Shown: positions 1-29,716 of the stretch, piece by piece
Layout: every line of letters begins with the position of its first letter
How positions within the stretch are numbered: the first letter of the stretch is position 1
Virus record (IMG/VR): IMGVR_UViG_3300031774_000095
Location: 1 to 29,716 of that record
DNA: 29,716 nt
Direction: 5' to 3' (one strand)
From: a virus
Notes under the pieces: generated by a model
What the model was told of the DNA's origin: nothing
What the model saw: only the letters and a program-made list of their open reading frames with translations
Database searches by the model: none
Program-made: the position numbers and the translations under genes

Positions 1-156
1 CACGCCGCAACCGACGAGACGATCACGGTCGCGCAGAGCTCCGCGAAGGAGATCCACGGCCCGTTCGATCTGATGCGCTTCAACGACTCGAAGAAGCGCG
101 TGACCGTACTTATTCAAGCAGCCGTTGGCGTGACCGTCGCGGCAGTGGAGGGCTAA
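1..156 (+). CDS. phage tail-region protein, 3' end only
   Basis: Open frame from the first base to a TAA at 154-156, giving the last 51 residues of a gene that begins outside the window. The fragment ends in a run of small hydrophobic residues (AAVGVTVAAVEG) and shows no motif I recognise. It lies two bases before the next late gene and reads in the same direction as the tail and lysis genes, so a virion or tail-associated role is likely from context only. Confidence 0.6.
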   Translation, partial: HAATDETITVAQSSAKEIHGPFDLMRFNDSKKRVTVLIQAAVGVTVAAVEG

Positions 157-158
157 CG

Positions 159-611
159 ATGGCCGCCGGAGACCTGACCCTATTCAACGACTTCACGAGG
201 CAGCTCGCAGAGAAAGAGATCGACCTCGCAGACGACACCTACAAGATCGCGCTCTACACGACGACGCGCGCGCCGGTCGTGACCGAGACGACGCCAGTCT
301 ATAGCGGGACGAACGAGGTCAGCGGGACGAACTACGCGGCGGGCGGCGTCACCGTGAGCTCGAGCATGGCCGTCGGTCTCTCCGGCGCGGTCGCGAGCTG
401 GACCGGAGGCAGCGGACCCCACGCGACCTGGAGCCAGCACGCGAGCGGCCCCACCGACATCCGCTGGGGCATTCTCTACAACGACACCGCAGCCGCGAAG
501 CCTGCCGCCGCCTTCATCGTATTCGGAGATGGCGCAGACATCTCGCTAGCGGACGGCGACATCAGCTTCACGTTCCACGCGACAGCGATCGCGCAGATCA
601 CGCGGAGCTAG
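159..611 (+). CDS. putative phage virion protein, GTNEVSGTxYAAGG type
   Basis: 150 residues. The layout (short helical start, a segment near residues 30-40 reading KIALYTT, then GTNEVSGTNYAAGG near 51-64, a WGILYND block and a FxFGDGADISLADGDISFTFHAT tail split over several strands) matches a small beta-rich structural protein common in siphophage tail or decoration modules. I recognise the pattern, not a named family. It starts two bases after the preceding stop and ends one base before the next gene, so it is translated within the same late operon. Role in the virion is inferred. Confidence 0.65.
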   Translation: MAAGDLTLFNDFTRQLAEKEIDLADDTYKIALYTTTRAPVVTETTPVYSGTNEVSGTNYAAGGVTVSSSMAVGLSGAVASWTGGSGPHATWSQHASGPTDIRWGILYNDTAAAKPAAAFIVFGDGADISLADGDISFTFHATAIAQITRS

Positions 612-612
612 G

Positions 613-1272
613 ATGCACGTCGTCCCGTTCACGATTTCGGGCTACACGTTCACGCACGTCGAAGAAGGCGACGCGCTGAACCGACCCGCGCGTGATCGCT
701 GGACGGAGCTCCACGACGTCGCGACTGAAGCCTGGAGAGGCGAGCCCTACGAGCCCTGCGACATCAGCGAGGGCGAGACCGTCTTTGCGATCACAGACTC
801 AAGCGGCGAGCTCTGGGGCACGTTCGCGCTCTACCGGCAACGCGCGCTCGACGCCGCCCTGCCCCACGTCGTGAGCGCGCTCGTCGCGCCTATGTTCCCA
901 GAGCTCGACGTGGAGATCCCGGGCGAAGCGCTCGCTCCGAACGGGCTCGTCGTCAACGCGAACGAGATCATCGAGGCGGAAGAGCGTCGCGCGACGTTCT
1001 GGCGTCGCACCTTCGGCGTGATCGAGCACCTCGTCGAGAACGGCCTAGAGCTCGAAGATGGCAGCGTTCTCGAGATCGACCACATCCGGTTCCCGCAGAC
1101 CGAAGACGGCGACACCGCCCAGCACCAATGGACGAACGTCCGCGAGTTCTTCGATCGGTACATGAAGCTCGTCGTCGAGTTCGACGCGAACGATCGAGCG
1201 CTGCGGACCCTCTCGATCTGGAAGCCGGTCGATCCCGATTCGTCACGAGCTCGGGGAGCGTTCGATGCCTGA
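613..1272 (+). CDS. hypothetical late protein
   Basis: 219 residues, acidic, with no transmembrane segment and no motif I recognise. Alternating charged and hydrophobic stretches and several tryptophans suggest a soluble folded protein. The ATG follows the previous TAG by one base, and the end overlaps the next gene by eight bases, which indicates translational coupling inside the tail operon. Placement between a putative virion protein and a fibre-like protein suggests a tail-tip or fibre-assembly role, but this is inference only. Confidence 0.6.
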   Translation: MHVVPFTISGYTFTHVEEGDALNRPARDRWTELHDVATEAWRGEPYEPCDISEGETVFAITDSSGELWGTFALYRQRALDAALPHVVSALVAPMFPELDVEIPGEALAPNGLVVNANEIIEAEERRATFWRRTFGVIEHLVENGLELEDGSVLEIDHIRFPQTEDGDTAQHQWTNVREFFDRYMKLVVEFDANDRALRTLSIWKPVDPDSSRARGAFDA

Positions 1273-2950: not shown

Positions 2951-2952
2951 CC

Positions 2953-3587: not shown

Positions 3588-3906
3588 TCCGCTCGCGAAG
3601 CAGCTCCACCTCGAGTGGGGCGCGTTCTGGGTGATCGTCAATGAAGGGTGCAGGCGCTTTGGCGGCTCGGTCGTCTCTGGCATCCGCAGCGAGACCCGGA
3701 ACGTCGGCGTCGGCGGTCACCCGGAGAGCCGTCACCTGAAGGGGCTCGCCGCCGACGTGACCTTTCTGCCGGATCGAGAACGCGACGCGAGAGAACGCTG
3801 CGACGAGTGCTTCGCGTTCTTCTACGAGCGCGGGCTCTACGGCTACCAAAAGCCCAGCGGAACGTCGCTGCATATCCAAGATCGGAGCGCGAAAGCTCCA
3901 CAGTAG
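3574..3906 (+). CDS. endolysin, peptidase M15 family (L-Ala-D-Glu or D-Ala-D-Ala type)
   Basis: 110 residues. Residues 52-61 read SRHLKGLAAD, which fits the zinc-binding SxHxxGxAxD signature of M15 peptidases (His54 and Asp61). A second SLHIQD block gives the third ligand at His100. These enzymes cut peptide bonds in the peptidoglycan stem. The length is that of a catalytic domain alone, with no cell-wall-binding domain. The ATG at 3574 overlaps the preceding membrane gene by 14 bases. The longer upstream open frame would read through that gene and is rejected. The neighbours (membrane protein before, holin after) support a lysis role. Confidence 0.85.
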   Translation: MDVNDPLAKQLHLEWGAFWVIVNEGCRRFGGSVVSGIRSETRNVGVGGHPESRHLKGLAADVTFLPDRERDARERCDECFAFFYERGLYGYQKPSGTSLHIQDRSAKAPQ

Positions 3907-3919
3907 AAGGAGATCGAAG

Positions 3920-7312: not shown

Positions 7313-7428
7313 TAGTTTGCCTCCCACGAGGACACCTGGCGTGCAATCTCCAGTGCGTCCTCTTCCGTCAAGTGGAGTTCAGTGGTTTCGAAGTCGTCGC
7401 CGTTGAACTCGAGTTCACGCGGGTCCAT
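7312..7428 (-). CDS. 38-residue early mini-protein
   Basis: Read from the minus strand: ATG at 7428, TAA at 7314-7312. Sequence starts MDPRELEFNGDDFETTELHL and ends ARQVSSWEAN. It is strongly acidic. Both junctions are TAATG one-base overlaps with neighbouring genes, and a GAAGGGGAAG-like purine run precedes the ATG. Position and overlap style argue that it is translated although it is very short. Function unknown. Confidence 0.6.
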   Translation of the reverse strand: MDPRELEFNGDDFETTELHLTEEDALEIARQVSSWEAN

Positions 7429-8324
7429 TACTTCCCCTCCTTCTGGAAGGGAGGAATCCCGCGGATATGGTCTGCGGCTTTCTGGGCTTGCTGCGCAGCG
7501 TCAATGACGATCCGGGGATCGTCGCGCAGGGCTTTCTTCCAGCTCTGGATGTACGCGGCAGCGTTCTCTACCGTGTCCTTCCGCTGAAGGCCGGAGATGC
7601 CACAGAGGAAGGAGGCCGTGAACTCGGCCACGAGTTCCTCCCGCGCATACTCGTGACTGCGGAACTTCGCTGCCCGGTTGACGCTCTTCCTCTTCAGCCG
7701 GGACGTGTGCCCAGTCGCGTGACCCAGCTCGTGGAAGACAGTTGCGAAGTAGGCGGAAGCGTCTGTGAACTCATCAGGATGAGGAACCCTGACCGCGTCC
7801 TCCGGCGGGATGTAGCAAGGCTGGTTCCCGCCGTGAGTGAACTTCGGCCCGTCAGGATTGCCGGGCTGAATAAAGTCGTCCACAAGCTTCTGGGCGACTT
7901 CCGTCCCCGACATATCAGTCGGCTCACTGACCGAGTCCGGAGAAGACGTGTCTTCCACTCCTTCGCACTGGCCGACGTTCCAAACCCGGAAGGATCGAAG
8001 AAGGGGATAGGTAGACTTCTTCCCCGTGTTCTCGTCTTCCTTCTTGACCCAGTTCCAATAGATGACGTTCGCGAAGCGATCCAGCTGATCCTCTTGGATC
8101 ACTCCTCCCCGCTCTTCGGTCTGCTTCTTCGTCAGCCAGGTGGGCGACTCGAAGCGTCCTCCCATCATGGAAAGCCAGAAGACGTTGAAGCCGCGATAGG
8201 CGGTGCCGCGAATGTTCCGCGGCATTCCGGCGTGCGGGTTCCACGTTCGCAGCCAGGGGATCTCCCCTTCATCCATCCGGGCGATGACTTCGCGAGTGAC
8301 ACTCTCGTAGATCTTGGCGCTCAT
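7428..8324 (-). CDS. ArdC-like antirestriction protein
   Basis: 298 residues from the ATG at 8324 (GAGGAG ribosome-binding site, TAATG overlap with the upstream stop). The N-terminal domain (about 1-125: IYESVTREVIARMDEGEIPW, then RNIRGTAYRGFNVFWL) is the ssDNA-binding domain of ArdC. The C-terminal zincin-like domain carries HELGH at 198-202 and a downstream EELVAE segment for the third ligand. ArdC proteins of plasmids and phages protect incoming DNA from host restriction. The family link is clear, but the function here is inferred. The middle stretch at 120-150 is probably a linker. Confidence 0.88.
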   Translation of the reverse strand: MSAKIYESVTREVIARMDEGEIPWLRTWNPHAGMPRNIRGTAYRGFNVFWLSMMGGRFESPTWLTKKQTEERGGVIQEDQLDRFANVIYWNWVKKEDENTGKKSTYPLLRSFRVWNVGQCEGVEDTSSPDSVSEPTDMSGTEVAQKLVDDFIQPGNPDGPKFTHGGNQPCYIPPEDAVRVPHPDEFTDASAYFATVFHELGHATGHTSRLKRKSVNRAAKFRSHEYAREELVAEFTASFLCGISGLQRKDTVENAAAYIQSWKKALRDDPRIVIDAAQQAQKAADHIRGIPPFQKEGK

Positions 8325-8758
8325 TAGTTCCACTCCTCGTCGTCTTCGTCGCCGTCGTTCCAGAAGTCGTCGCCTTCTTCGGACTCCACTTCGTCGTCGT
8401 CCCCGATGTTCCAGCCCACTTCTTGCATCACCGGGAGAAGGAGGTCGAAGGGGGCGAGGAACCCTTCACGGGCATAGCCGAACCCCTGCTCGGGAGCCCG
8501 CTCACTCGGCGCAGCATCGTCGGTCCCGTCCTGTCCAACACAGGATGTCCAGCAGGACACATGCCAAGCGTTCGGGTTTCGGGTGAAAGTCTCGTTCGGG
8601 TTCTTGCGGTCGAAGACGTCCCACTCGGTGCTGTCCTCCATGAGGACGACCCCATAACCGGAGTAAACTCCGACGTGGTCATCGATCCGGACGTACTCCG
8701 CTGGACGAAGGTCACGGCCGCAATTCGGGTTCTTGCAGATCCAGGAGAACTGACCCAT
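8324..8758 (-). CDS. hypothetical early protein, MGQFSWI family pattern
   Basis: 144 residues. It starts MGQFSWICKNPNCGRDLRP: a Cys-x5-Cys knuckle after a conserved-looking MGQFSW start that I have seen in small phage and actinobacterial proteins, followed by GVYSGYGVVL. A second Cys pair (VSCWTSC) lies near residue 70. The C-terminal 30 residues are almost only Asp, Glu, Gly, Asn and Trp, a strongly acidic tail that could mimic DNA or block a host protein. TAATG overlaps at both ends. Function unknown. Confidence 0.65.
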   Translation of the reverse strand: MGQFSWICKNPNCGRDLRPAEYVRIDDHVGVYSGYGVVLMEDSTEWDVFDRKNPNETFTRNPNAWHVSCWTSCVGQDGTDDAAPSERAPEQGFGYAREGFLAPFDLLLPVMQEVGWNIGDDDEVESEEGDDFWNDGDEDDEEWN

Positions 8759-9195
8759 TAGATCAGGCCCTCCTTGCGAAGCGCCTCGGCGACCAGTTCA
8801 AGAGCCTTGCGAGGGTTCTTGACACACCTGCCATTGGAGCGGGTTTCGTAGAGGAACTCGAAGCACCGAGTCGCCAGCTCCGATGCAGATTCCTCGGAGG
8901 TGTTCTCGTGCTGACACCAGGCGGCGGCCTGTTGCTCAGCCTTGTAGGTCTGCACGATGTCCCCGACCGCAGCGAACCCGTTCTCCGGGTTGTGGTAGTG
9001 GTTGAGATAACGCTCAACCCGACCAGCCAGATACTCGGCTTCCTTTTCGCTCAGGGCGTTGCTGTCGTAGATCCAGTCGGACTGCTGAGTTCCGGAGCTG
9101 TCAATCCAGTAGCCGAAGATCCCGAACTCCTCAGTCTCTTCCCCGTCGTCGTTGACGAAGGGAGCCGGCATGAGATTGATTCTCGTTGCCTTCAT
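8758..9195 (-). CDS. first gene of the leftward early cassette, hypothetical
   Basis: 145 residues. ATG at 9195 with a near-perfect ribosome-binding site (AGGAGG seven bases upstream). Mixed alpha/beta composition with a FGIFGYWIDSSG segment and a C-terminal helical region (ALELVAEALRKEG). No motif recognised. As promoter-proximal gene behind the operator pair at 9250-9282 it should be the most strongly expressed member of the 13-gene cassette. Confidence 0.65.
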   Translation of the reverse strand: MKATRINLMPAPFVNDDGEETEEFGIFGYWIDSSGTQQSDWIYDSNALSEKEAEYLAGRVERYLNHYHNPENGFAAVGDIVQTYKAEQQAAAWCQHENTSEESASELATRCFEFLYETRSNGRCVKNPRKALELVAEALRKEGLI

Positions 9196-9638: not shown

Positions 9639-10751
9639 ATGGACCACCCGACTAGACGTATAGGATGGGTCTCCTCTAAAGGTGGGGACCGATACGAGAT
9701 CGACTTCCGAGAGCTTGGGAGGATCTCCTCCCTTGATGGCGTGACCTTCCGCGGGGACGAGGGGAAGATCCTCGCGACGGGAGTTCTTCGCGCGATCGAG
9801 TCCGCAGTCGCACGGGGGGAAGCGCTCGAGTCCGTTGTCGCACGCTATCGGCCCCACTCAAGGAAGAGGGAGATCGTCGCTGCGTTCTCTCGCTTCGTCT
9901 CGCATGTCGAGGACCTGGTTGAAGCTGGCGACCGGAGCGAGAAAACTGCTCGCGAATATCGTCGCCTCCTTCGGACGGAGCTTCCTTGGTGGCAGAAGAG
10001 AACTATCGACGAGATGACCTTTGCTGCGCTCGAGGACTGGGACCGCTCGCTCGTGGTTCGCAAGCTCTCGCCGAAGAGCAGGAAGAACTATCTTGGAGCC
10101 CTTCGCGCAGCCTGCTCATGGCTGGCACGACGAGGCGAGCTGAAGAGCGTCCCGCCGTTCCCTCGAGTGGAAGTCCCTGAACATCGGCCGACCATCCTGC
10201 CGCGCGAGGTTGTGGACTTCTTGCTCCGGCAGATCCCAGAGAAGCAGCGAGGTCCGTACCTCCTTGCGGCTCGCATGGGTCTACGACCTGGGGAAGTTCG
10301 TGCGCTCGATGTCAGCGACGTGAGTCGCAGCGGGAAGATCTGGAGACTGAACGTCTCCAAGGCTGTGCAAGGTCCCCACTCTGGCAGCAAGATCGGACCG
10401 ACGAAGAACCGGCGCGACCGGGTCCTGCCTGTCCACCCTGAAGTCAGAGAGTGGCTCGAGCATCACATCGACTGGACTGGTCGACTACGACGAGCGCCGC
10501 TCTTCACAAACCCAGTCTCGCACAAGCGCTTGAGTCACACGCAATTCTACGAGGTCTGGTATAGGGTCCGGCAAGGAGTCACCGATGCCAGTCTCTACCA
10601 GGGAACCAAACACAGCTTCGCCAGCGATGCACTCGAGTCAGGAATCGACATCAACCGCATCCGAAAGTTCCTCGGCCACAGCGACCCGCGTTCGACAGAG
10701 CGCTACGCCAAGCTCAGCGACAAGAGTCTCGACATCTTCGCCGAGCGGTAG
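9639..10751 (+). CDS. int: tyrosine recombinase / phage integrase
   Basis: 370 residues. An N-terminal arm domain (about 1-75), a core-binding domain (80-165) and a catalytic domain (190-370). Catalytic residues visible: Arg216 (GLRPGE), Lys256, His347 (FLGH) and nucleophile Tyr356 (TERYAKL). The box normally reading HxxRH reads QGTKHSFAS here, so box-II Arg is Lys324 and the preceding His is Gln321. It should integrate and excise the phage at the adjacent att site. The ribosome-binding site is weak. The 3' end overlaps a zinc-ribbon frame by 167 bases. Confidence 0.9.
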   Translation: MDHPTRRIGWVSSKGGDRYEIDFRELGRISSLDGVTFRGDEGKILATGVLRAIESAVARGEALESVVARYRPHSRKREIVAAFSRFVSHVEDLVEAGDRSEKTAREYRRLLRTELPWWQKRTIDEMTFAALEDWDRSLVVRKLSPKSRKNYLGALRAACSWLARRGELKSVPPFPRVEVPEHRPTILPREVVDFLLRQIPEKQRGPYLLAARMGLRPGEVRALDVSDVSRSGKIWRLNVSKAVQGPHSGSKIGPTKNRRDRVLPVHPEVREWLEHHIDWTGRLRRAPLFTNPVSHKRLSHTQFYEVWYRVRQGVTDASLYQGTKHSFASDALESGIDINRIRKFLGHSDPRSTERYAKLSDKSLDIFAER

Positions 10752-11444: not shown

Positions 11445-12197
11445 TTAGGCCGACAGATCCAGATCCGTCAGCGGAGACCAGCACCATTCTTGGCGGTCAC
11501 ACCATTTGCAGTAGGCGCAGCTCCTCGAGCGTGCAGCCTTCGGCCTGGGAGGCGGGAGATCCCCTTCGGCTGTGACCAGGGCGCTCTGCTTTTCGAGCTT
11601 TGTCGCATAGTCCAGGTCGTAAAGGATTCTCTCCGCGTAGAGTTCCGAATTGTCTTTGCAGTAGACGATGACAATCGCGTCCTCTACGCCCTCCGGCAGA
11701 GTGTGGAGATACGCCTGGACCTGGGCCGCATAGTTCGGCGACCAGGCCGCATAGCCGACCTCCTTCAACAGCTCGAAGCGCTTCACGTTCGAAGACTTGA
11801 TTTCGAGGAGGGACTTGCGGGGGATCACATCCTCGCTCCAGATGATCCCATCGATGTGGCCGATCCAGCGGCCGTCGCCGCCGACGCACTCGAGCTGTTG
11901 ATCCGTGACGAGGAACCCAGCTTCCTCGAGGATGCGGATCACTTCGTCCTCGATTGCGTGACCCAGACCAAAGATCCGAAGAAGGCCTGGCTTCCATGCG
12001 AATCCCTTCCCCTCGTCAATGGGGAGTCCGCGAAACGCTGCCCAGCGCTCACGCCAGCATCGCCCGGCAGATGACATCCGGTCGATGCCCGTCGGCTCCT
12101 CTTGACTTTGCGCCTGCTTCGCCCGCTCATTCTCCATGAGCGTCTGGTCGATCCGGCTCAGGATATGAGGAGCCAAGATCACGAAATTCTCTTGCAT
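11445..12197 (-). CDS. PD-(D/E)XK nuclease with Cys cluster (Cas4/RecB-like)
   Basis: 250 residues from the ATG at 12197 (GGAGGG upstream). The nuclease core is clear: GHIDG (Asp116) and LLEIKSS (Glu132, Lys134), then a helix YAAQVQAYL typical of RecB/Cas4 nucleases. Cys47 near the N-terminus plus a C-terminal cluster CAYCKWCDRQEWC could hold an iron-sulfur cluster as in Cas4 and AddB. It is probably the 5'-3' exonuclease partner of the Sak4-like ATPase and SSB-like protein encoded upstream in the same operon. The last step of a recombination module is inferred from context. Confidence 0.82.
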   Translation of the reverse strand: MQENFVILAPHILSRIDQTLMENERAKQAQSQEEPTGIDRMSSAGRCWRERWAAFRGLPIDEGKGFAWKPGLLRIFGLGHAIEDEVIRILEEAGFLVTDQQLECVGGDGRWIGHIDGIIWSEDVIPRKSLLEIKSSNVKRFELLKEVGYAAWSPNYAAQVQAYLHTLPEGVEDAIVIVYCKDNSELYAERILYDLDYATKLEKQSALVTAEGDLPPPRPKAARSRSCAYCKWCDRQEWCWSPLTDLDLSA

Positions 12198-12212
12198 GGC
12201 GACCCTCCAAAA

Positions 12213-12265
12213 CCGCCGGGAGAGTGGACGCGGGAGGCAACCACGCGCCCACTCCATCCCGGCGG
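12213..12265 (-). promoter_or_regulatory. long intergenic RNA hairpin before the nuclease gene
   Basis: Outer 8-bp stem CCGCCGGG (12213-12220) with CCCGGCGG (12258-12265), then AGTGG with CCACT and CGCG with CGCG inside. On the minus strand the hairpin is followed by TTTT and then the ribosome-binding site of the nuclease gene. It could be an attenuator, an RNA-processing site, or a translational control element that lowers nuclease relative to SSB and Sak4. Confidence 0.6.
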
Positions 12266-12294
12266 CCCTCACCCCTGCGGCGAGGTAGTTAGTC

Positions 12295-12807
12295 CTAGAA
12301 GGGGATGTCGTCGACGAGCCCTTCGGACGTGGGCGAACTCGTCACCACTTCGGGAAGCGCCGCAACGGGAGTCGCGCCGTTCGCCATCGAGTAGTTGCGA
12401 ACCCGGTTCTCGAAGCCGTCCGCGTCCCCGAAGCTCGCGTCCTTTGCCTTGGCCCTGACCAGGTCGACGATGACCATCTTCCCCTCGAGCGCTTCGGTGC
12501 CGTCCGTCCGGAGGAAGTCCCGGCCGAGACCGCAAGCGTCGCTGAGCGATGCGAGATGCTCGAGGGCGATCTCCACCGCCTTCGGGTTCGGGTTCTGAAT
12601 GTTGAAGTTCTGCCAAAGGTGGCGACCGCTGAACTCCCCTCCTGCGTGCGTGAACTGCACCTTGAGATAGACGCCCGTCCCAGCCTTCGTCTTCTTCAGA
12701 TCGCTGCTGACGATCATCATCCGGTACTCCCCGGCCGGGAACGCGGCGAAGTCGCCGCCCGTCATGCTGGTGTCGATCCCGCTCAAGTCGATGTCGAACT
12801 TCGGCAT
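12295..12807 (-). CDS. SSB-like / DUF669-type single-strand-binding protein
   Basis: 170 residues. The N-terminal region (GEYRMMIVSSDLKKTKAGTG then YLKVQFTHAGGEFSGRHLWQ) is the beta-rich OB-type pattern of phage DUF669 proteins, which accompany recombinases. The last seven residues, LVDDIPF, copy the acidic C-terminal tip of bacterial SSB that recruits partner proteins. It should coat ssDNA made by the nuclease for annealing or replication. ATG at 12807 overlaps the upstream stop by one base (TAATG). Confidence 0.78.
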   Translation of the reverse strand: MPKFDIDLSGIDTSMTGGDFAAFPAGEYRMMIVSSDLKKTKAGTGVYLKVQFTHAGGEFSGRHLWQNFNIQNPNPKAVEIALEHLASLSDACGLGRDFLRTDGTEALEGKMVIVDLVRAKAKDASFGDADGFENRVRNYSMANGATPVAALPEVVTSSPTSEGLVDDIPF

Positions 12808-13607: not shown

Positions 13608-13666
13608 AGTTTGCCTCCTATTAATTGCGACCCTAAAACAAGAATCGCTGTTCATTGGACTCGTAG

Positions 13667-17586: not shown

Positions 17587-17891
17587 GCCAGGAAGAACCT
17601 CTCGAGGAAGTCCTCGAGCCTGCAAACCACTTCGACTTGCTGCGCATCGACCCACTTCAAGCGATCAACGAGAAGTCGCGACGCGGGAGACAGCGCTATG
17701 GGGCCGAGTGGGTCGGCCATCGGCCGATCCTCGAGGCGCACGACGAGGCGCTCGACTTGGGAGCCTATCTCTTCTTCGAACTCGAGAAGGGTGAACTCGA
17801 CAGGCAGCTCATCGAGGAGCTGATCCGTCAAACGCTGAACCTGATCCAAGGCGTTCGGGTAGCAGCAAAGACCTTGGAGGAGACTCAATGA
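17583..17891 (+). CDS. hypothetical protein, MazG-like helical pattern
   Basis: 102 residues from the ATG at 17583 (ATGA overlap with the resolvase stop). The segment RRGRQRYGAEWVG followed by EAHDEALDLGAYLFFELEKGE recalls the core helix pair of phage MazG-like nucleotide pyrophosphohydrolases, with acidic residues on one face. The classical EExxE and ExxD set is not fully present, so the match is weak. Position between replication and modification genes would fit a nucleotide-pool function. Otherwise unknown. Confidence 0.55.
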   Translation: MSQEEPLEEVLEPANHFDLLRIDPLQAINEKSRRGRQRYGAEWVGHRPILEAHDEALDLGAYLFFELEKGELDRQLIEELIRQTLNLIQGVRVAAKTLEETQ

Positions 17892-18382
17892 GCTGGAAAG
17901 ATCGTGTAAAGGAATTTCGGCGGGTTCCTGTTGCTGAGCTACAGGCGAACCCGAAGAACTGGCGGGAGCATCCGAAGGAGCAGCAAGAAGCGCTTTCGGG
18001 GGTACTCGAGGAGGTTGGGATTGCGGGAGCGCTACTCGCTCGAGAGACGCCCGATGGTCTCGAGCTGATCGATGGGCACTTGCGTTCCGAGATGAATCAA
18101 GAAGTCGACTGGCCTGTTCTCGTGCTTGATGTCAACGAGGAGGAAGCTGACAAGCTCCTGGCCTCCATCGATCCGATCGCTGCAATGGCTCTCAAGAACG
18201 AATCCTCCTTAAATGACCTTCTCGCAGGTATTGAGGCAGAGAATGCTTCTTTTGCGAAGCTGCTCAAGGGACTCGAGACCAAGATCCCTGAGGCCCCGGA
18301 CGACTTCAGCGACTTCGACGAGGACATCGAGACGCAGCACGAGTGCCCGAGCTGCGGCTACCGCTGGAGCGGCGGGGAGTGA
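17888..18382 (+). CDS. ParB-like nuclease-domain protein with C-terminal zinc ribbon
   Basis: 164 residues. The N-terminal domain (PVAELQANPKNWREHPKEQ, then DGLELIDGHLRSEM near 57-70) is the ParB/Srx-type fold seen in phage ParB-like proteins, with the conserved IDGHLR in place of the usual GxxR box. A C-terminal HECPSCGYRWSGGE is a zinc knuckle. In phages such genes often stand next to DNA methyltransferases, as here (GTGA overlap with the following methyltransferase). It could be a DNA-binding adaptor for modification or packaging. Enzymatic activity is not evident. Confidence 0.72.
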   Translation: MSWKDRVKEFRRVPVAELQANPKNWREHPKEQQEALSGVLEEVGIAGALLARETPDGLELIDGHLRSEMNQEVDWPVLVLDVNEEEADKLLASIDPIAAMALKNESSLNDLLAGIEAENASFAKLLKGLETKIPEAPDDFSDFDEDIETQHECPSCGYRWSGGE

Positions 18383-19695
18383 CTCTCTGGCTTCATCGTG
18401 GAGCGCATGGGTACTTCCCCGGAGACAAGAGGAACCTCGACACAGGTCCCTGCCCCACGGTTCTGGCCGGCGGCAACCTGGGAGCTGAATACTGGCTCGA
18501 GGATGATGGGAGAGAGTTCGTGCCTGATACCAGCAAGCCGGCCTATCGCGTACCCACGATGGATGAGATCCGCGCGATCCCCTGGAATGGCCTCACGGTC
18601 GCTTCGACATTCAGCGGCTGTGGAGGCTCTTGTCTGGGGTATCGCATGGCAGGCTTCCGCGTAGTCTGGGCAAACGAGTTCGTCCCTGCGGCTCAGGACA
18701 GCTACAACGCCAACAAAGCCGAGGCCTGCTACCTCGACTCGAGGGACATTCGAACCGTCAAGTCTGAAGAGATCCTCGAGCAGACAGGTCTTGCTCGAGG
18801 GGAACTCGACCTCTTCGATGGCTCCCCCCCCTGCCAGGCGTTCTCGACTGCGGGAAAGCGAGAGAAGGGCTGGGGCACCGAGAAGAAATACGAGCATGGG
18901 GCGACGCAGAAGAACGAGAGGCTCTTCGACGACTACATTCGCCTCCTCGATGGCTTGCAGCCGAAGACCTTCGTCGCGGAGAATGTCTCGGGCCTGGTCA
19001 AAGGCACCGCGAAGGGGATGTTTTTGGAGATCCTTCGAGGTCTCAAGGCCTGCGGTTACCGCGTCAAGTGCAAGCAACTCGACGCACAGTGGCTCGGCGT
19101 CCCCCAGATGCGGCAGCGCGTGATCTTCGTCGGCGTGCGAGAAGACCTCGGGCTCGAGCCTGTGCATCCGAAGCCTCTTCAGTACCGCTACAGCGTTCGC
19201 GACGCGATTCCGAATGCGCTCTTCGTGCCGTACATGACCACGGGGAAGACGCCAGTTCAACGAACGGCTGACAAGCCTTGCCCCACCGTCACCACTTTCA
19301 ACGTGAGCGGGGCAGGCGACAAGATTGAAGTCGAGGGCAGTCACGAGGGATGGTACTCGGGAAGCCTCGAGGGCTATGCGACAGGCGAGGAGTGGGACAA
19401 GATCAAGCCAGGAGAAGCCTCGAAGAAGTATTTCAACCTCAAAAGAGCACATCCTGACAAGCCAAGCGGGACCATCCTCGCCTCGCATGGAACTCCTGGC
19501 AGTTCCGGCGTAGCTCACCCGACCGAGAAGAGGAAGTTCACGATCCCCGAGCTGAAGCGGATCTGCGGCTTCCCGGACGACTTCATTCTCAAGGGGACCT
19601 ATGCGCAGCAGTGGGAGCGCTTGGGGAACTCGGTTCCGCCCGTGATGATGCACAAGGTCGCAGAAGCCATCCGGAGCGGAATCTTCGACAAGTGA
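18379..19695 (+). CDS. DNA (cytosine-5) methyltransferase
   Basis: 438 residues from the GTG at 18379 (GTGA overlap with the ParB-like stop). Motif I STFSGCGG (76-83), motif IV DGSPPCQAFS with catalytic Cys152, motif VI ENV (201-203), motif VIII QMRQRV (243-248), SVRDAI and motif X GNSVPP near the C-terminus are all intact. A target-recognition region lies before motif IX/X, near residues 290-360. About 70 residues precede motif I and include a PCPTVLAGG segment like that in the recognition region. No restriction enzyme is nearby, so this is a solitary methyltransferase, probably protecting phage DNA. Its target is unknown. Confidence 0.92.
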   Translation: MTLWLHRGAHGYFPGDKRNLDTGPCPTVLAGGNLGAEYWLEDDGREFVPDTSKPAYRVPTMDEIRAIPWNGLTVASTFSGCGGSCLGYRMAGFRVVWANEFVPAAQDSYNANKAEACYLDSRDIRTVKSEEILEQTGLARGELDLFDGSPPCQAFSTAGKREKGWGTEKKYEHGATQKNERLFDDYIRLLDGLQPKTFVAENVSGLVKGTAKGMFLEILRGLKACGYRVKCKQLDAQWLGVPQMRQRVIFVGVREDLGLEPVHPKPLQYRYSVRDAIPNALFVPYMTTGKTPVQRTADKPCPTVTTFNVSGAGDKIEVEGSHEGWYSGSLEGYATGEEWDKIKPGEASKKYFNLKRAHPDKPSGTILASHGTPGSSGVAHPTEKRKFTIPELKRICGFPDDFILKGTYAQQWERLGNSVPPVMMHKVAEAIRSGIFDK

Positions 19696-19965: not shown

Positions 19966-20319
19966 GTGAGAAAACAGCGGAGCGCGATCATCGCCAACGA
20001 GCAGAACCTTAAGCCTTGGCCCAAAGGCGTCTCGGGGAATCCGAAGGGCCGTCCGAAGCGCAAGAGCTTCGAGACTCTGGTCGAGGAAGAACTCGATCGG
20101 CAGGTCCCTGGTGCCTCGTCGATGATCGGTCGAGAAGCGCTCGCAAGGCTCTTCGTCTCCCAGCTGCTCAGCAAGCGCAACAAAGAAGCCTTCTCCCACT
20201 ACATCAAGAGGGCCTGGCCCGAGGTATCTCGCCACGAGATCAGCGCCGACGTGGAGATGAATGCGGAAATCGAAGTTGCAGCCGACGAGCTTCGCAGGCT
20301 CCTGGAGCGGGCTGAATGA
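19966..20319 (+). CDS. terS: small terminase subunit, DUF5681-type N-terminus
   Basis: 117 residues from a GTG. The segment LKPWPKGVSGNPKGRPKRKS near 15-34 is the GxSGNPxGRPK signature of DUF5681-type phage packaging proteins, a DNA-binding arm. The C-terminal part is helical (oligomerisation). It lies directly in front of, and overlaps by four bases (ATGA), the large terminase, which supports the DNA-recognition role in packaging. No better start codon exists upstream. Confidence 0.78.
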   Translation: MRKQRSAIIANEQNLKPWPKGVSGNPKGRPKRKSFETLVEEELDRQVPGASSMIGREALARLFVSQLLSKRNKEAFSHYIKRAWPEVSRHEISADVEMNAEIEVAADELRRLLERAE

Positions 20320-21587
20320 CGCAATCCAGGATCGAGAATCCTCGACTGCGAGAAGGGCTGCATCAGGCTTCGTCTGCGGTCCAGGCTCGAGCGCTCTACG
20401 ACTGGGGCCTCTGGGCAAGGCCAAACCAGCTCGAGCCCTCTGGCGATTATCGATACTGGCTTGTGCTTGCTGGTCGAGGCTACGGCAAGACTCGAGCAGG
20501 AGTCGAGTGGGTCCGGGCTCAGATCGAGAGTGGCAAGGCCTCTCGAGCGGTAGCGGTGGCTCCTACCGCGGCCGACTGCCGCGACACCTTGACCGAAGGT
20601 CCCTCAGGCTTCTTGCAGTGCTGCCCTCCGTGGAATCGACCCACCTACGAGCCGAGCAAGAGGCGTCTCACCTGGCCGAATGGTGCCACCTGCACGCTGT
20701 ACTCGGCCGAGGAAAGTGACCGCCTGCGAGGCGTCAACTGCGACCTCTTGCTCGCAGACGAGCTGGCTGCCTGGTCGAAGCCTGAGACCTGGGACATGGC
20801 GATGTTTGCTCTGCGCCTGGGGGACAACCCTCGAGCGATGATTACGACCACGCCACGGCCGACGAGGCTGATCCGGGAGCTGCTCGAGCACCGCGATGCG
20901 GTGGTCACTCGAGGCTCGACCTACGAGAACAAATCGAACCTGGCACCTCAGTTTCTCGAGGAGATCGTGCGCAGGTACGAAGGGACCAGGCTCGGGCGGC
21001 AGGAGATCTATGCGGAGGTCCTCGAGGACGTTGATGGCGCGATTCTGACTCGAGAGATGCTCGAGGCAGCGCGGGTCGAGAAGGTCCTCGAGCCTGGCCG
21101 AACCGTGGTGGGGGTCGACCCGGCTGTCACCTCGGGCGAATACGCCGACCGCACGGGGATCGTGGTGGCCTGCCTCGATGCTTCAGGAGAGCTCTATGCG
21201 ATGGCCGACCGCTCGTGCCAGCTCGGGCCTGCAGGCTGGGCTCGCAGGGTCGTCGATGTCTTCCACGAGTTCGAAGCCGACCTGATCGTCGCGGAGAAGA
21301 ACCAGGGCGGGTTGATGGTCGAACACACCATTCGCTCGGTCGAGACCGACGTTCCGATCTCCCTGGTCACTGCCACCAAGGGGAAGCACGTCCGGGCTGA
21401 GCCGATCCTCTCGATGTTCGAGCAAGGTCGTGCTCACACGCTCCCAGGACTCGAGACGCTCGAGGAGCAGCTCGGGCGGTTCACGCCTGAGGGATACGAG
21501 GGAGACGACTCGCCGGATAGCGCCGACGCCTTCGTCTGGGCGGCAACGGAACTCACGACGGACAAGGGGGCGCAGATCTTCTTATGA
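20316..21587 (+). CDS. terL: large terminase subunit (packaging ATPase and nuclease)
   Basis: 423 residues. Walker A GRGYGKT at 53-59, Walker B LLLADE at 144-149, a motif III-like ITTTPRP near 176-182, and a nuclease domain whose first acidic strand is VVGVDPA (Asp268) with later acidic residues in LIVAEKNQGG and SPDSADAFVW. This is the motor that packs DNA into the prohead and cuts it. Length is typical. The gene holds 14 copies of CTCGAG. The stop overlaps the portal ATG (ATGA). Confidence 0.93.
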   Translation: MTQSRIENPRLREGLHQASSAVQARALYDWGLWARPNQLEPSGDYRYWLVLAGRGYGKTRAGVEWVRAQIESGKASRAVAVAPTAADCRDTLTEGPSGFLQCCPPWNRPTYEPSKRRLTWPNGATCTLYSAEESDRLRGVNCDLLLADELAAWSKPETWDMAMFALRLGDNPRAMITTTPRPTRLIRELLEHRDAVVTRGSTYENKSNLAPQFLEEIVRRYEGTRLGRQEIYAEVLEDVDGAILTREMLEAARVEKVLEPGRTVVGVDPAVTSGEYADRTGIVVACLDASGELYAMADRSCQLGPAGWARRVVDVFHEFEADLIVAEKNQGGLMVEHTIRSVETDVPISLVTATKGKHVRAEPILSMFEQGRAHTLPGLETLEEQLGRFTPEGYEGDDSPDSADAFVWAATELTTDKGAQIFL

Positions 21588-23986
21588 GCATCTTCTCGAG
21601 GAGAAGCGCCGAAGTCGCTCAGCCGCTCGGTGGGACCGTTTTGTCCCTGTCCAGGCTACTTGGGCACCAGGCCTATGACACGGACCCGATACGGACTGAT
21701 GCAGACGCTCTGAAGGCCTATTCAGGCTGGGTCTATGCCTGTGTTTCGACGATCAGCCAGGACGTTCGAAGTTCCACATGGAACGTTTGGCAGAAGGCTG
21801 GTACCGGTCGAGAGGACTGGAAGGCGCTCGAGGAAGGTCAGGTCCCTGATGTTCTAGCTAGACCGAACTCATCCCAAACCTTCGCGGACCTTCTCGAGCT
21901 GACCCAGGTCCATCTCGACCTGGCTGGTCGAGCCTTCTGGCACCTAGTGACCGCAGGTCCTGGCGGTCGAGTGGTCGGCATCCAGCCTTTGAATCCCGAT
22001 TGGGTCTCGAAGGCGGTCTACAACGACGCCAGAACCCAGCTCACAGGCTGGGAGATCGCGGTTGGAGGTTCTGGCCGAAGGACGCTGCCTGCTGAAGACG
22101 TGATCCTCTTTCGCTATCCCGACCCTGTCGATCCCGTGGGCGGGATGTCCCCCATTCGAGCCGTCGCCATGTCAGCCGACATGGACACCTATTCCCGAGC
22201 CTACGCCGCAAGCCACCTGCGGAACCACGCGCAGCCCACAGGCATCCTGACCACCGAGTCAGAGCTGACTCGAGACCAGGCCTCGACGCTCGCAGAAGCG
22301 TGGAAGGACTCGCACCAGGGCACCAACAACATCCAGGTCCTCGGCAAGGGTGCGCAGTATCAGCCTCTCAGCTCGACTATTCGAGACCTTGCCTACCTCG
22401 AGCTGAGCCGAGTAAGTCGAGACCAGATCCTCGCCGCGTACCACGTTCCTGCCTCGAAGCTCGGCCTGGTCGAGGACTCGAGTCGAGCCAACGGGGAGGA
22501 GAGCGACAGGACCTACTCGGCCCTCTGCTTGGGGCCTCGACTGAGGCGCTACCACGAACCAATTACGCAGCGAGTTCTTCCCAGGCTTGGGCTCGACTCG
22601 AGCCGGTTTTGCTTCGAGTTCGACCCGGTCGAGGTAGCCGACAAGACCTTCGAGCGCGATGCAGCACAGGCTGCCTTTCAGGCAGGCGCGATTACACTCG
22701 ACGAGTATCGCGACCGGATCGGATTCGGGCCTGACCCGAACGGCCGCGGGGCAGTCTACTTCGTGCCGCTCGGATTCTCGGTGGTCGAAGAGCCTGACTC
22801 GAGCAGCCTGGCAGTCTCGAGCGATAGTCTCGAGGAGGACTCGGCGGTACTGCAAGACGCTGCTCGAGGAGAAGCAGGTCTCGGCGATAGCGTCGCGCCT
22901 GATCTGGTCCTGAATGGAGCACAGGTCGCCTCACTCGTCTCTGTAGTCGAGGCGATGATGGCAGGCACCCTCCCCTACCCGAGTGCTCTCGAAATCGTCC
23001 AGAGCGCCTTCGGTATGTCAGAGGAGAAGGCCAGGCGAATCCTCGGCCCCGAAACGAACGCCGGAATCAACGAGCCTCAAGCGGTCTCCGAGGCTGTGGA
23101 TCGAGCGATGCGAAGCCTCGAGCTAGACGACCGGGAACTCGAAGACCCGAGCGAAGAGCGAATCGAGATCGCTGCGCTGCGCTTCCTCTCGTCCCAGGGC
23201 GAAGCCGAGCGCCGCATGAAGGGGCGTCTCCGAGCGTTCTTCTCCCGGATGCAGAAGGCAGTTCTTGCTGAGCTGAAGTCGAGCCCCCCTCGAGCAGCCT
23301 CACCGGCCGAGACTCGTGCTCCGATGCCCTCGCTCGAGGATGTCTTGCTTGAGTTCGACGAGGACTTGAAAGCTATTCTCTTCGAGGAGTCTTTCAGCAC
23401 CTTCGGCGAAGGCTTCGAGTCTTTCAGCCAAGAGCTTGCCTCGACGATCTCCCCTGATCTCCACGTCGACTTCAACCTGGTCTCTGACGAAGTCATCGAG
23501 TGGGCTGCTCGAGAGTCAGCGAAGAAGGTCAAGGGGATCACAGCCGAGACGCTTGGCACGGTGCAAGAGATCGTCTCTTCCTCTCTTGCAGAAGGCGATT
23601 CGATCGACGGGATTGCCGACAAGCTGCGCGCCAAGTTCGACGAGTACAAAGGCGTCCGCGCCGAAACGATCGCTCGAACCGAGACAGCGAATGCCTACAA
23701 CGCCGGGAAGTTCGAGAACGCTCGTGCCTTCGATGAAGCCAATGACGACTTGGTAGTGACAAAGACCTGGGTCCCAACCCAGGACGACCGGACTCGAGAC
23801 GCCCATCGCTCGGGCGCGATCAAGAATTCGTCCGGACAAACTGCGCGAACGCTTCCGATCAACGAAGCCTTCTATGTCGGGGGTGAGCCCATGCAGCGCC
23901 CTCTCGACGATAACGACGGACGGACCAGCGCGGGGAACGTGATTCGCTGCCGGTGCGTTCTCATCAACGACGTGAGGGATGTCTGA
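21584..23986 (+). CDS. portal protein fused to a Mu F-like head morphogenesis domain
   Basis: 800 residues in one uninterrupted frame. Residues 1 to about 420 are an HK97-type portal (YSGWVYACVSTISQDV near the start, then LEEVQ-type helices). After a low-complexity acidic linker, the C-terminal 200 residues (IARTETANAYNAGKFENAR, then TWVPTQDDRTRDAH and NVIRCRCVL) form the SPP1 gp7 / Mu F domain that usually is a separate gene. The fusion places the morphogenesis protein on every portal subunit. The stop overlaps the protease ATG by one base (TGATG). Confidence 0.9.
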   Translation: MSIFSRRSAEVAQPLGGTVLSLSRLLGHQAYDTDPIRTDADALKAYSGWVYACVSTISQDVRSSTWNVWQKAGTGREDWKALEEGQVPDVLARPNSSQTFADLLELTQVHLDLAGRAFWHLVTAGPGGRVVGIQPLNPDWVSKAVYNDARTQLTGWEIAVGGSGRRTLPAEDVILFRYPDPVDPVGGMSPIRAVAMSADMDTYSRAYAASHLRNHAQPTGILTTESELTRDQASTLAEAWKDSHQGTNNIQVLGKGAQYQPLSSTIRDLAYLELSRVSRDQILAAYHVPASKLGLVEDSSRANGEESDRTYSALCLGPRLRRYHEPITQRVLPRLGLDSSRFCFEFDPVEVADKTFERDAAQAAFQAGAITLDEYRDRIGFGPDPNGRGAVYFVPLGFSVVEEPDSSSLAVSSDSLEEDSAVLQDAARGEAGLGDSVAPDLVLNGAQVASLVSVVEAMMAGTLPYPSALEIVQSAFGMSEEKARRILGPETNAGINEPQAVSEAVDRAMRSLELDDRELEDPSEERIEIAALRFLSSQGEAERRMKGRLRAFFSRMQKAVLAELKSSPPRAASPAETRAPMPSLEDVLLEFDEDLKAILFEESFSTFGEGFESFSQELASTISPDLHVDFNLVSDEVIEWAARESAKKVKGITAETLGTVQEIVSSSLAEGDSIDGIADKLRAKFDEYKGVRAETIARTETANAYNAGKFENARAFDEANDDLVVTKTWVPTQDDRTRDAHRSGAIKNSSGQTARTLPINEAFYVGGEPMQRPLDDNDGRTSAGNVIRCRCVLINDVRDV

Positions 23987-24585
23987 TGAACCTGAACGCT
24001 TCCGCTCGAGCACTCGAGGAAGAAGGCTCGATGAGCTGGTTCCGAGCCAGCACCAACGATCTCGACCGCCACGGAACCATCGTCGAACCGAGAGGAATCG
24101 ACACGACGAACTTCCGAACAAACCCGGTGTTCATGTGGGGACACGACGCCTATGGCGACGGGTCTCCTCCGGATCTGGAGAATGTACTCGGTCGGGTCGT
24201 CGACTACCGCACGAGCGATGAAGCCTTCGACATCGGCGTCGAGTGGGCTGAGCACGACCGCGCTGTGATGGCGCGCGACCTGGTACGAGCTGGCTTCTTG
24301 AGTGCCGTCTCCGTCGGCTTCATTCCCGATGCGGACGGGATGACCACGCGCAGCGTCGATGGCTCGGAGGTTCCCGTCTATCAGCGCACGGAGCTGGTCG
24401 AAGTCAGCCTCGTGCCTGTCCCTTCCAACCCGAACGCGGTCGCTCTGATGCGCTCGCTTCGGATGCCCGTTTTCTCGAACCCCTCTCCGTCCCTCGAGGA
24501 CGCAGATTCCGAGGGCCTCCGGGACGCAACTAGGACCCTGCTTGAGCTGGAACGAATCCGGCTTGCCCTGCGGTCCACTTCATAG
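23986..24585 (+). CDS. prohead protease (HK97 S78 family)
   Basis: 199 residues from the ATG at 23986, which overlaps the portal stop. An upstream start at 23953 would lie in the portal gene. The S78 pattern is clear: WFRASTNDLDRHGTIV, then VFMWGHD with His53, a LSAVSVGF block with catalytic Ser109, and ELVEVSLVPVPSNPNA. It trims the scaffold part of the capsid precursor during maturation. Located between portal and major capsid as in HK97. Confidence 0.9.
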   Translation: MNLNASARALEEEGSMSWFRASTNDLDRHGTIVEPRGIDTTNFRTNPVFMWGHDAYGDGSPPDLENVLGRVVDYRTSDEAFDIGVEWAEHDRAVMARDLVRAGFLSAVSVGFIPDADGMTTRSVDGSEVPVYQRTELVEVSLVPVPSNPNAVALMRSLRMPVFSNPSPSLEDADSEGLRDATRTLLELERIRLALRSTS

Positions 24586-24596: not shown

Positions 24597-25847
24597 ATGG
24601 AACTCGCAACAGCAGTCGAGGAGCTGAAGGACGAAGTCCGACAGTTCGCCGACGAGACGGTGAAGCCGATTCAGGAAAGGCTCGCGTCGCTCGAAGAGCG
24701 CGACTCGGCCCCTACCGATGACTCGGTCACCGATATGGAGAAGAGGCTCATCGACAGCGAGCAGAAGCTCGCCGAGATGGGCGAGGTCATCCGACTTGTG
24801 CAGGTCAACGGCGGCATGTTGCCCGCGGCCGAAATGAAGGCGGAAGACCCCTACAAGAACCAGCTCGTGCCTCGCGTCGATGAGATGCGGAGCACCTGGG
24901 CCGAGAAGCGGACGATCGACACCGCCCTCTTCTCGTCCGACGCCGGGAAGCTCTCGACCGATACGGCCGACAGCTTCATCGACTTCTTCGTCAACGAGCA
25001 GACGACGCTCGGTCGTTGCCAGATTCGCCGCATGGCGGGTCCGCGTGGCACGATCGATCGCCTGAACTTCGCGACCGAGAAGATCCGACTGGCGACGGAG
25101 GCGACGGCCCAGGCCGTGTCCGATTCGGTCACGATCAGCCGCCGCAACCTCACCACGAACGAAATCGTCTGGACGGAGGACGTCTCGTTGTCCTTCCTCG
25201 AGGACAACATCGCCCGTGGCAACGTCGAGTCGGTCATTGCTGGCAAGCTCGGTCTGGCCTTTGGGACGGACATGAACTCGCTGGCCTGGCGAGGCGATAC
25301 AGCTGAAGCGAACACGACCTTCCTGGGCGTGGACGATGGCTGGAATCACCTCATGGAAGCCGACAGCGACGTGATCGATGTCGACCTCTCGGGGAACAGC
25401 TCGGGAAGCATCTGCAAAGACAACTTCCGCACCGTGCTGAAGAACCTGCCCAACAAGTACCGGACGATCGGGGACCTCACGTTCTTCTGTCCTCCGGGCT
25501 TCGCGCAGGAGTACGCAGACGAGTATGCGGATCGCGCCACCGCTGGCGGTGATGCGGTACTCGTCGGCGGCTTCCCGAACCTTCGCTACTTCGGGATTCC
25601 GATCATCCCCGAGTCGGCGATGGTGACGAAGTCGGGCGACACGGGCGCAGCCGCGCTCGGGTCGAAGCTGCTCCTCACGCCGGTGTCGAACCTCGTGTTC
25701 GGCATCCAGCGCGACCTCACGGTCGATGCGGAGTGGAACCCGCGCAAGCGCGTCGTCGAGTACACGCTCAGCGCGCGGCTCGATCAGGAGTACGCGTTCG
25801 GTGGTGTGATGGTTCTCGGAAACCAGATCGACAGCAGCGTTCTGTAG
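24597..25847 (+). CDS. major capsid protein, HK97 fold
   Basis: 416 residues with a perfect ribosome-binding site (AGGAGG). Residues 1-75 form a coiled coil (VEELKDEVRQFADETVKPI, EKRLIDSEQKLAEMGEVI), the delta/scaffold domain removed by the protease. From about 130 to the end the HK97 fold follows (RRMAGPRGTIDRLNFAT, later a KRVVEYTLSARLDQEYAFGGVM strand near the C-terminus). CTCGAG occurs once here against 14 times in terL. A hairpin lies 109 bases after the stop. Confidence 0.92.
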   Translation: MELATAVEELKDEVRQFADETVKPIQERLASLEERDSAPTDDSVTDMEKRLIDSEQKLAEMGEVIRLVQVNGGMLPAAEMKAEDPYKNQLVPRVDEMRSTWAEKRTIDTALFSSDAGKLSTDTADSFIDFFVNEQTTLGRCQIRRMAGPRGTIDRLNFATEKIRLATEATAQAVSDSVTISRRNLTTNEIVWTEDVSLSFLEDNIARGNVESVIAGKLGLAFGTDMNSLAWRGDTAEANTTFLGVDDGWNHLMEADSDVIDVDLSGNSSGSICKDNFRTVLKNLPNKYRTIGDLTFFCPPGFAQEYADEYADRATAGGDAVLVGGFPNLRYFGIPIIPESAMVTKSGDTGAAALGSKLLLTPVSNLVFGIQRDLTVDAEWNPRKRVVEYTLSARLDQEYAFGGVMVLGNQIDSSVL

Positions 25848-25955
25848 GTGATGGGAACTAGCGTGCAAAAGACTCGAGCTGAGAAGCAAGAGCCTCGGTC
25901 CCAATGCTGCCTGGGGGAGAGGTGTGTTTGTGCGCTTGTACCTGTCGGTCGATGT

Positions 25956-25991: not shown

Positions 25992-26047
25992 GCGTCGGCC
26001 TTTCCCGTCAGACTGACTTCGCTTCGGCGGTCGAAGGTGCGTGAAAG

Positions 26048-28353: not shown

Positions 28354-28371
28354 CAGCAGGAGGAAGGCCAA

Positions 28372-28758
28372 ATGGCTGTAGACGGAAACGAGATCGGAAT
28401 CATCATCGGGAGCGACCTGATCGGCTCCCAGAGAGGCGCGACCATTACGCGCAGCGCAGAGATGCTAGACGTCTCATCAAAAGAAGACGACGACGCGTTC
28501 TTCCTGGCAGGAAAGCGAACAATGAACGTCGAGTGCAACGCCTTCTATGTATCAGGAAGCACCGCTTACGCCTCGCTGGTGACCGCTTACGAGGCGGGCA
28601 GCGTCGTCACTTTGGTCTGGAGTGATAACGCCAATTCGGGATCCCCGACTGCCGTGAAGACAGTAAGCGCATTGGTTCAAAACATGAGCGTAGACGCACC
28701 CGCTCACGGACCCGCCGAGATCAGCATCTCGCTTCAGGGGACGGGAAACGTCACCTGA
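28372..28758 (+). CDS. major tail (tube) protein
   Basis: 128 residues with AGGAGG before the ATG. Begins VDGNEIGIIIGSDLIGSQRGATITRSAEMLDVSSKEDDD: the short strand plus the SxEMxDVSSKxxD loop is typical of TP901-1-like tail tube proteins. Later TMNVECNAFYV and the C-terminal PAEISISLQGTG strand complete the fold. It is followed directly by the tail chaperones, as is the tube gene in most siphophages. Confidence 0.82.
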   Translation: MAVDGNEIGIIIGSDLIGSQRGATITRSAEMLDVSSKEDDDAFFLAGKRTMNVECNAFYVSGSTAYASLVTAYEAGSVVTLVWSDNANSGSPTAVKTVSALVQNMSVDAPAHGPAEISISLQGTGNVT

Positions 28759-29156
28759 TGAGCTTGACGGCTGACCAACTGCGAGGGCGCGCGCGCGTCC
28801 TGATCGACGGCGAAGAGCTCTTCCTTCGCTTCGATCAGGGCGCGCTCGCTCGCCTAATCGACCAGCTCGGTCTCGAGGGGCTCGTCTCGATCCCCAGTGC
28901 GGTCGCGCAGCTCGACCCGCAGACGCTCGCCGCCCTGGTTTGGGCCGGTCGTCTCTGGGAAGAGCCAGAGCTCGCGCTCGAGACCGTCGAGGGCTGGTGG
29001 TATCCCCTGCTCCCCACCTACAACGCCGCGCTCGAGGCGATCAACCTCGCGCTCTGGGGCGTCCCCGAACCGGAGCTCGAGGGAGGCAGCGACGACGACG
29101 TGGACCCTCACCACGCGGCGACTGGGACTTCGTCGCCGCGCGGCGCTTTGCAGTAG
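28758..29156 (+). CDS. tail assembly chaperone, G-like product
   Basis: 132 residues. Begins with the sequence LTADQLRGRARVLIDGEELFLRFDQGALARLIDQLG, a short beta-hairpin then helices, as in GTA/HK97 tail chaperones. The end (PELEGGSDDDVDPHHAATG) is an acidic, disordered tail. It overlaps the -1 frame that carries the second chaperone domain. TGATG overlap with the tail tube stop. Confidence 0.8.
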   Translation: MSLTADQLRGRARVLIDGEELFLRFDQGALARLIDQLGLEGLVSIPSAVAQLDPQTLAALVWAGRLWEEPELALETVEGWWYPLLPTYNAALEAINLALWGVPEPELEGGSDDDVDPHHAATGTSSPRGALQ

Positions 29157-29461
29157 TTCGATGGAGTTGGGAAGAGGAGCGCTTCTGGAAGACGACGCCC
29201 GCCGAGTTCAACGGCTACGCCGAAGAGTACGGCGAGCAGCAGAAAGCGAGGCTCGAGCTCGCACGAGCCGCGAGCTACTGGACTGCGGCCCTGGGGCGAG
29301 CGAAGACGATCCCGCAGTTCGAGCAGTGGATGAACCCGCCGAAGCCGGGACGCGCGCTTGAGGGTGAAGAGCTGGAAGAGCGAAAAGAGCAGCACGAAGC
29401 AATCGCGGAACGGTTTCGCGAGGTGATCGAGCAGAGGGAGAACGCGCAGCATGGCGACTGA
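29063..29461 (+). CDS. -1 frame extension of the tail chaperone (T-like domain)
   Basis: Open frame offset by -1 from the G-like gene, coding for a helical protein with DWDFVAARRFAVVRW and EERFWKTTPAEFNGYAEEY, the FWxxTPxEF pattern of tail assembly chaperone domains. No ATG, GTG or TTG lies at the junction; the nearest upstream codons fall in the non-coding-looking Arg-rich part. The product is therefore probably made by programmed -1 frameshifting as in lambda G/T. The start given is a candidate slip point (CCCC at 29063-29066), not a proven one. Confidence 0.65.
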   Translation, partial: PRTGARGRQRRRRGPSPRGDWDFVAARRFAVVRWSWEEERFWKTTPAEFNGYAEEYGEQQKARLELARAASYWTAALGRAKTIPQFEQWMNPPKPGRALEGEELEERKEQHEAIAERFREVIEQRENAQHGD

Positions 29462-29716
29462 AGTAGGCGCAGTAGAGGTCGTCCTTCGAGCTCGCATCGA
29501 CCAGCTCCAGCGCGACCTGAAGCGCGCCGAGGGCAGCACGAAGACGACCGCAAACCGGATGCGCGCGAATTTCGCGAAAATCGCGGCGAGCGTTCGGCAG
29601 GTCAAAGGAAACCTCGTCGGCGTCGCAGCGGTCGCGGGCGGTCTGGCGACCGGCGCGATGGCGAACCTCGCGCGGCAGGCGATCAAGACCGCGAACGACC
29701 TGGGCGACGTCGCCTC
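29451..29716 (+). CDS. tape measure protein, 5' end
   Basis: First 88 residues, running off the right edge of the window. ATEVGAVEVVLRARIDQLQRDLKRAEGST is the usual start of phage tape measure proteins, a coiled-coil initiating helix; the hydrophobic VAAVAGGLATGAMANLARQ follows. It fixes tail length and probably is the longest gene of the genome. Overlaps the T-like frame by 11 bases. Confidence 0.82.
   Translation, partial: MATEVGAVEVVLRARIDQLQRDLKRAEGSTKTTANRMRANFAKIAASVRQVKGNLVGVAAVAGGLATGAMANLARQAIKTANDLGDVA

Follow-up and report, generated by a model that had tools for sequence, protein, structure and literature searches.

We found that the palindrome CTCGAG is strongly over-represented in the 29,716 bp stretch of phage DNA analysed here (hereafter the window), and that this signal is real, unusual, palindrome-specific and opposite to that seen in the relatives of the phage. 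The cause is most likely a DNA habit of a host. Our leading explanation, to which we give a probability of roughly 0.4, is that CTCGAG is a diffuse genome signature like the highly iterated palindromes (HIPs) of cyanobacteria, gained together with a host. The window belongs to a tailed phage carrying a tyrosine integrase (9639..10751, + strand; 5 CTCGAG vs an expectation of 1.8), a gene which suggests a temperate phage.

An excess of CTCGAG at the level of DNA

An exact count, with all positions listed, gave 112 copies of CTCGAG dispersed over the whole window, about 1 per 265 bp. An earlier note on this DNA had reported about 110 copies by eye where base composition predicts about 10, and both figures were close, the calculated expectation being 9.8. 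The ten-fold excess which it described therefore holds against base composition (approximately 11 times) but not against Markov or synonymous nulls, which leave an excess of about 2.5–3.1 times. Markov models of order 1 and order 2 predicted 35.3 and 36.0 copies, 112 being 3.1 times the trinucleotide prediction, and orders 3 and 4 predicted 55 and 89, both of which are inflated by CTCGAG itself. The dinucleotides GA (1.5), TC (1.52) and CG (1.24) are common in the window. The earlier note would have been refuted had di- and trinucleotide counts by themselves yielded about 110 copies; when run, such a model gave 35–36 and an excess of about threefold stayed.

CTCGAG was the most frequent hexamer of the window and its sole clearly over-represented palindrome. 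We shuffled synonymous codons inside 28 genes 1,000 times, keeping protein and codon usage, and found 89 coding copies of CTCGAG vs 34.5 ± 4.7 expected, the highest of the 1,000 shuffles reaching 52. Among the 64 palindromes compared in this way CTCGAG had a z of 11.9 and the runner-up 3.0. In order to take out the general liking for TCGA with a C on its left and a G on its right, as well as for TCGA itself, left and right preferences were also learned from non-palindromic LTCGAR words only and then used to predict the palindromes. This LTCGAR fit predicted 38 copies of CTCGAG (ratio 2.9), and the other palindromes of the same core were GTCGAC (14 vs 44.5), ATCGAT (9 vs 17.8) and TTCGAA (10 vs 9.1). 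By this context fit, palindromes of the window stood at a median of 0.32 of expectation when all cores were taken together. Palindromes are thus generally below expectation and CTCGAG is above it, indicating ordinary palindrome avoidance with one exception in this phage. Under strict nulls the excess specific to CTCGAG is about 2.5–2.9 times.

The excess acts on DNA and not via protein, as the earlier note had held. Coding copies were spread over the three codon frames as 60, 17 and 12 (frames 0, 1 and 2), so that the third frame which had been pointed out is indeed used, and the synonymous shuffle gave only 2.3 expected copies in frame 1 and 4.1 in frame 2. Leucine was encoded by CTC in 85% of cases before GAG vs 33% before codons without an initial G, arginine by CGA in 65% of cases between CT and G vs 14–17% in most other contexts (Fisher P = 1.7e−7), and serine by TCG in 72% of cases between C and AG vs 24–42% elsewhere (P = 0.001). 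As the shuffle and the choices of leucine, arginine and serine codons in three frames all favour CTCGAG, selection or bias acts at the level of DNA, and a protein-level cause was rejected. Outside called genes there were 23 copies in 8.2 kb, some of which fall in Cas4 and SSB genes called later. These belong to a consecutive minus-strand row of a Cas4-domain exonuclease, an SSB-like protein and a Sak4-like annealing ATPase (11445-13655), which is a phage recombination module.

It is possible, if rather doubtful, that codon context alone is responsible: the phage or its host would prefer NTC|GAN junctions, of which CTC-GAG is the commonest case, and release from restriction would do the rest, with no process specific to the palindrome. 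TCGA as a whole was raised over the synonymous expectation (370 vs 264), as were CTCGAC (38 vs 23.4) and CTCGAT (21 vs 11), about two thirds of coding CTCGAG lie in frame 0, and leucine is already encoded by CTC in 72% of cases before GAC or GAT. A test of leucine codons before GAG against those before GAC, GAT and GAA alone was borderline (P = 0.05). The frame 0 excess therefore partly overlaps a general NTC|GAN effect, and the clean evidence for an effect on DNA comes from frames 1 and 2. However, these frames are enriched through arginine CGA and serine TCG, beyond the reach of any Leu-Glu codon-pair rule, the LTCGAR fit already includes the preferences for C on the left and G on the right and still falls far short of the count, and GTCGAC is depleted even though it shares the TCGA core.

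The distribution along the window was described as very patchy in the earlier note, with steps in density marking module boundaries, but we found that patchiness is mostly background. Variance/mean per kb was 1.55 and the CV of spacing 1.12, no regular spacing was found along the window, and CTCGAG made up a homogeneous share of TCGA sites across 30 genes (chi2 = 30.5, df = 29, P = 0.39). The gene counts given for terL, portal and capsid were exact. The terL gene (20316..21587, + strand) contains 14 copies, 8 in frame 0 and 6 in frame 1, vs a synonymous expectation of 3.7, and the gene for the portal with a MuF-like C-terminus (21584..23986, + strand) contains 16 vs 4.4; both owe their richness in CTCGAG to the large number of Leu-Glu pairs and TCGA sites which they contain. 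The head maturation protease gene (23953..24585, + strand) contains 3. The gene for the major capsid or virion structural protein (24597..25847, + strand) contains 1 vs an expectation of 1.5; with CTCGAG in 1 of 18 TCGA and only two Leu-Glu pairs, it departs marginally at most from the other genes. The homogeneity among genes speaks against module boundaries, except for the TCGA-poor leftward cassette (7428..9195, − strand), which consists of a gene for an ArdC-like anti-restriction protein with two small genes beside it and has 0 CTCGAG and only 6 TCGA in these three genes. This 1.8-kb cassette, TCGA-poor unlike other regions of the phage, may have a separate origin and may be a recent acquisition.

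Relatives and other viruses

The terL product was 72–75% identical to those of six IMG/VR contigs and 42–54% identical to those of prophage-like loci, mainly in Alphaproteobacteria; scans with the integrase and Sak4 gave no useful relatives. Across terL, portal and protease, where the six relatives share 62–68% nucleotide identity with the window, 0 of 33 CTCGAG were kept at the aligned place (those of terL in 0/6 homologues), and individual positions therefore do not matter. The five close relatives long enough for the LTCGAR fit contained 1 CTCGAG in total vs approximately 38 expected, and 49 terL relatives contained 145 vs 402. This member is thus enriched in a word which its clade has purged. 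The sister contigs L006 and L007 also have 0 copies of GTCGAC, alongside the absent CTCGAG.

An assembly artefact is unlikely since a second assembly (L063), 99.98% identical over 6.36 kb, repeats the excess with 21 CTCGAG vs 8.1–9.6 expected. L063 was also considered as a closure of the record into a circle, which it does not close.

A scan found at least 120 viral contigs with three clustered CTCGAG; these were chosen for CTCGAG, so that prevalence cannot be read from them. Among the contigs listed, some exceeded the palindrome-specific excess of the window, with L165 having 58 CTCGAG vs 14.4, and L087 (49 vs 6.4) and L158 (61 vs 8.0) being unrelated viral contigs with CTCGAG at 6–8 times context. 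In L113 (IMGVR_UViG_3300036798_000479, 8234 bp) there were 45 copies vs 0.2, partly in short (15-bp) repeats. The excess therefore recurs in unrelated viruses, and viral contigs of this kind exist. In L113, a GC-rich phage contig, TCGA is nearly confined to CTCGAG (45 of 73 TCGA). It should also be noted that Salinibacter phage M1EM-1 (MF580955.1, 1-30000) has 2 CTCGAG vs approximately 96 by the context fit or 49 by the order-2 Markov model, a near-purge which suggests strong XhoI-type restriction pressure in Salinibacter.

Host and methyltransferase as candidate sources

We found no host with a comparable palindrome-specific excess among approximately 500 genomes of three phyla, a survey outside which lie Planctomycetota, Myxococcota, Bacteroidota and haloarchaea; the search for bacterial genomes sharing the excess, suggested earlier as a route to the host, was thus negative within this range. 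The genomes counted, with some overlap, were 190 from Alphaproteobacteria, 100 from Pseudomonadota, 149 from Actinomycetota, 60 from Acidobacteriota and 31 from one alphaproteobacterial order, the phylum names following the loci used as centres. The densest genome had 24 CTCGAG per 10 kb vs 37.7 in the phage. The palindrome-specific ratio was mostly 0.5–1.3 in about 70 stretches taken from genomes dense in CTCGAG or biased towards it; the top ratio of 2.0 came from one stretch, the sister stretches of which gave 0.85 and 0.83. CTCGAG-dense bacterial genomes are thus explained by their own TCGA context. Candidate hosts rejected on this ground were the alphaproteobacterial order (up to 24 per 10 kb, with near-identical dinucleotide biases) and the Acidobacteriota (CTCGAG/GAGCTC up to 14). 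Salinibacter, Rhodothermus, Planctopirus, Isosphaera and Rubrobacter plasmids were rejected by composition, with 1.6–4.4 CTCGAG per 10 kb and observed/expected ratios of 0.31–1.65.

Under the host-derived signature which we prefer, the phage would have acquired its bias by long residence in a host lineage which favours CTCGAG and in which the word is no restriction target. What the sequence itself shows is that synonymous and non-coding positions genome-wide have moved to CTCGAG, by drift or under pressure, over and above a broad liking for TCGA, whereas other six-base palindromes are avoided in the usual manner. A resident methyltransferase probably marks the word, and methylation-linked repair or replication may retain it. 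Single sites would then be interchangeable, with no site-specific function required, and the relatives may avoid CTCGAG due to restriction of the word by their own hosts.

A variant which we consider unlikely is that the phage lineage keeps a HIP of its own, with CTCGAG methylation encoded by phage or host driving the very word which sister phages purge. Were this self-maintained HIP true, one could follow how HIPs form by comparing close viral relatives in which the trend is reversed.

The only DNA methyltransferase seen in the phage is a C5-cytosine enzyme (18358..19695, + strand) with the motifs FSGCGG, PPCQ, ENV, QMRQR and GNSVP, the closest PDB matches of which are 8yf3 and M.HaeIII. Its frame spans 18343/18358-19695; the end given earlier (18379-19695) was correct and the start close. 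A ParB-N-like gene (17888..18382, + strand) overlaps it, and a ParB-like gene also neighbours a C5 methyltransferase gene of this kind in Azospirillum p7 and in the Streptomyces phage TurkishDelight. The overlapping pair occupies 17888-19695 in the window, 14418-16185 in L198 and 19345-21206 in L197, the latter two being one alphaproteobacterial plasmid and one actinophage. GGATCC is strongly avoided in these three replicons (observed/expected 1/12.6 in the window, 0/15.6 in L197 and 0/19.2 in L198).

It seems improbable that this enzyme is itself the source, by recognising CTCGAG or TCGA, protecting the sites by methylation and enriching them via repair or replication. The enzyme is intact by motif, no restriction partner was seen in the window, CTCGAG methylases are known from giant viruses (PMC7253447), and the gene is absent in L005, the one relative readable there, where a ParB-like gene is followed by an FkbM-type gene in a contig without CTCGAG. 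However, replicons with homologues at 54% and 59% identity hold 2 and 1 CTCGAG vs 15.5 and 23.5 expected, the figures of 2 vs 15.5 being those of the TurkishDelight stretch and 1 vs 23.5 those of the Azospirillum p7 stretch, and a relative (L266) with a 65% identical methyltransferase holds 4 vs 5.5, no excess. As the replicons bearing homologues are poor in CTCGAG, the methyltransferase family is not tied to the excess and the link between the two drawn in the earlier note is not supported, though the target-recognition specificity of this member may differ. Methylation alone would moreover lift avoidance and leave the excess unexplained.

It is very unlikely that CTCGAG is a multiply used functional site under selection (e.g. 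for recombination, nucleoid organisation or self-recognition), as its genome-wide presence in all frames could suggest, since spacing is irregular, a palindrome has no orientation, positions are not conserved among relatives and the ArdC cassette lacks the word with no evident loss; palindromy and unconserved positions also led us to reject a role like that of Chi or KOPS.

Significance and comparison with known systems

The filling of some genomes by one palindrome, as by HIP1, has an unsolved cause. A clade with strong avoidance in some phages and strong excess in another is a small comparable system, which could test methylation, repair or host signature as the source of iterated words. The excess could also serve as a compositional tag by which uncultivated phages are assigned to hosts. 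If codon context alone explains CTCGAG, the result would be a modest caution for genome-signature methods.

For HIP1 of cyanobacteria, methylation-linked repair or replication has been proposed by Elhai (PMC4390886), and most cyanobacterial HIPs occur at about 500–2,500 per Mb (PMC4390886). In the window, one palindrome is far ahead of other words, being both top hexamer and top palindrome; it occurs at 3,770 per Mb, though as a hexamer it is shorter than HIP1; and its excess goes beyond codon and amino-acid preference by the synonymous shuffle and the three-frame codon tests. The candidate for a methyltransferase of matching specificity is the C5 enzyme, the homologues of which do not co-occur with CTCGAG excess. 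The HIP1-like interpretation put forward earlier is therefore supported by a word which is dispersed, palindromic and dense.

As with cyanobacterial HIP1 and the alternate HIPs (Elhai 2015, PMC4390886), a short palindrome is over-represented genome-wide with one dominant word per genome, and this is the property of one lineage, absent in relatives. Unlike those HIPs (PMC4390886), the signal is in a phage and not a cyanobacterial chromosome, the word is CTCGAG, the specific excess is weaker and the methyltransferase is only a candidate for a matching specificity. In the giant viruses mollivirus, cedratvirus and pandoraviruses (PMC7253447), CTCGAG is likewise a target of virus-associated methylation, without a restriction enzyme; the enzymes of these giant viruses of amoebae are N6A or N4C enzymes, however, whereas that of the phage is a C5 enzyme of which CTCGAG is only a candidate target. 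Phages and plasmids avoid palindromic restriction sites (e.g. PMC10359461). The palindromes of this phage other than CTCGAG follow this rule, as does CTCGAG itself in the relatives, whereas in the phage CTCGAG runs counter to it.
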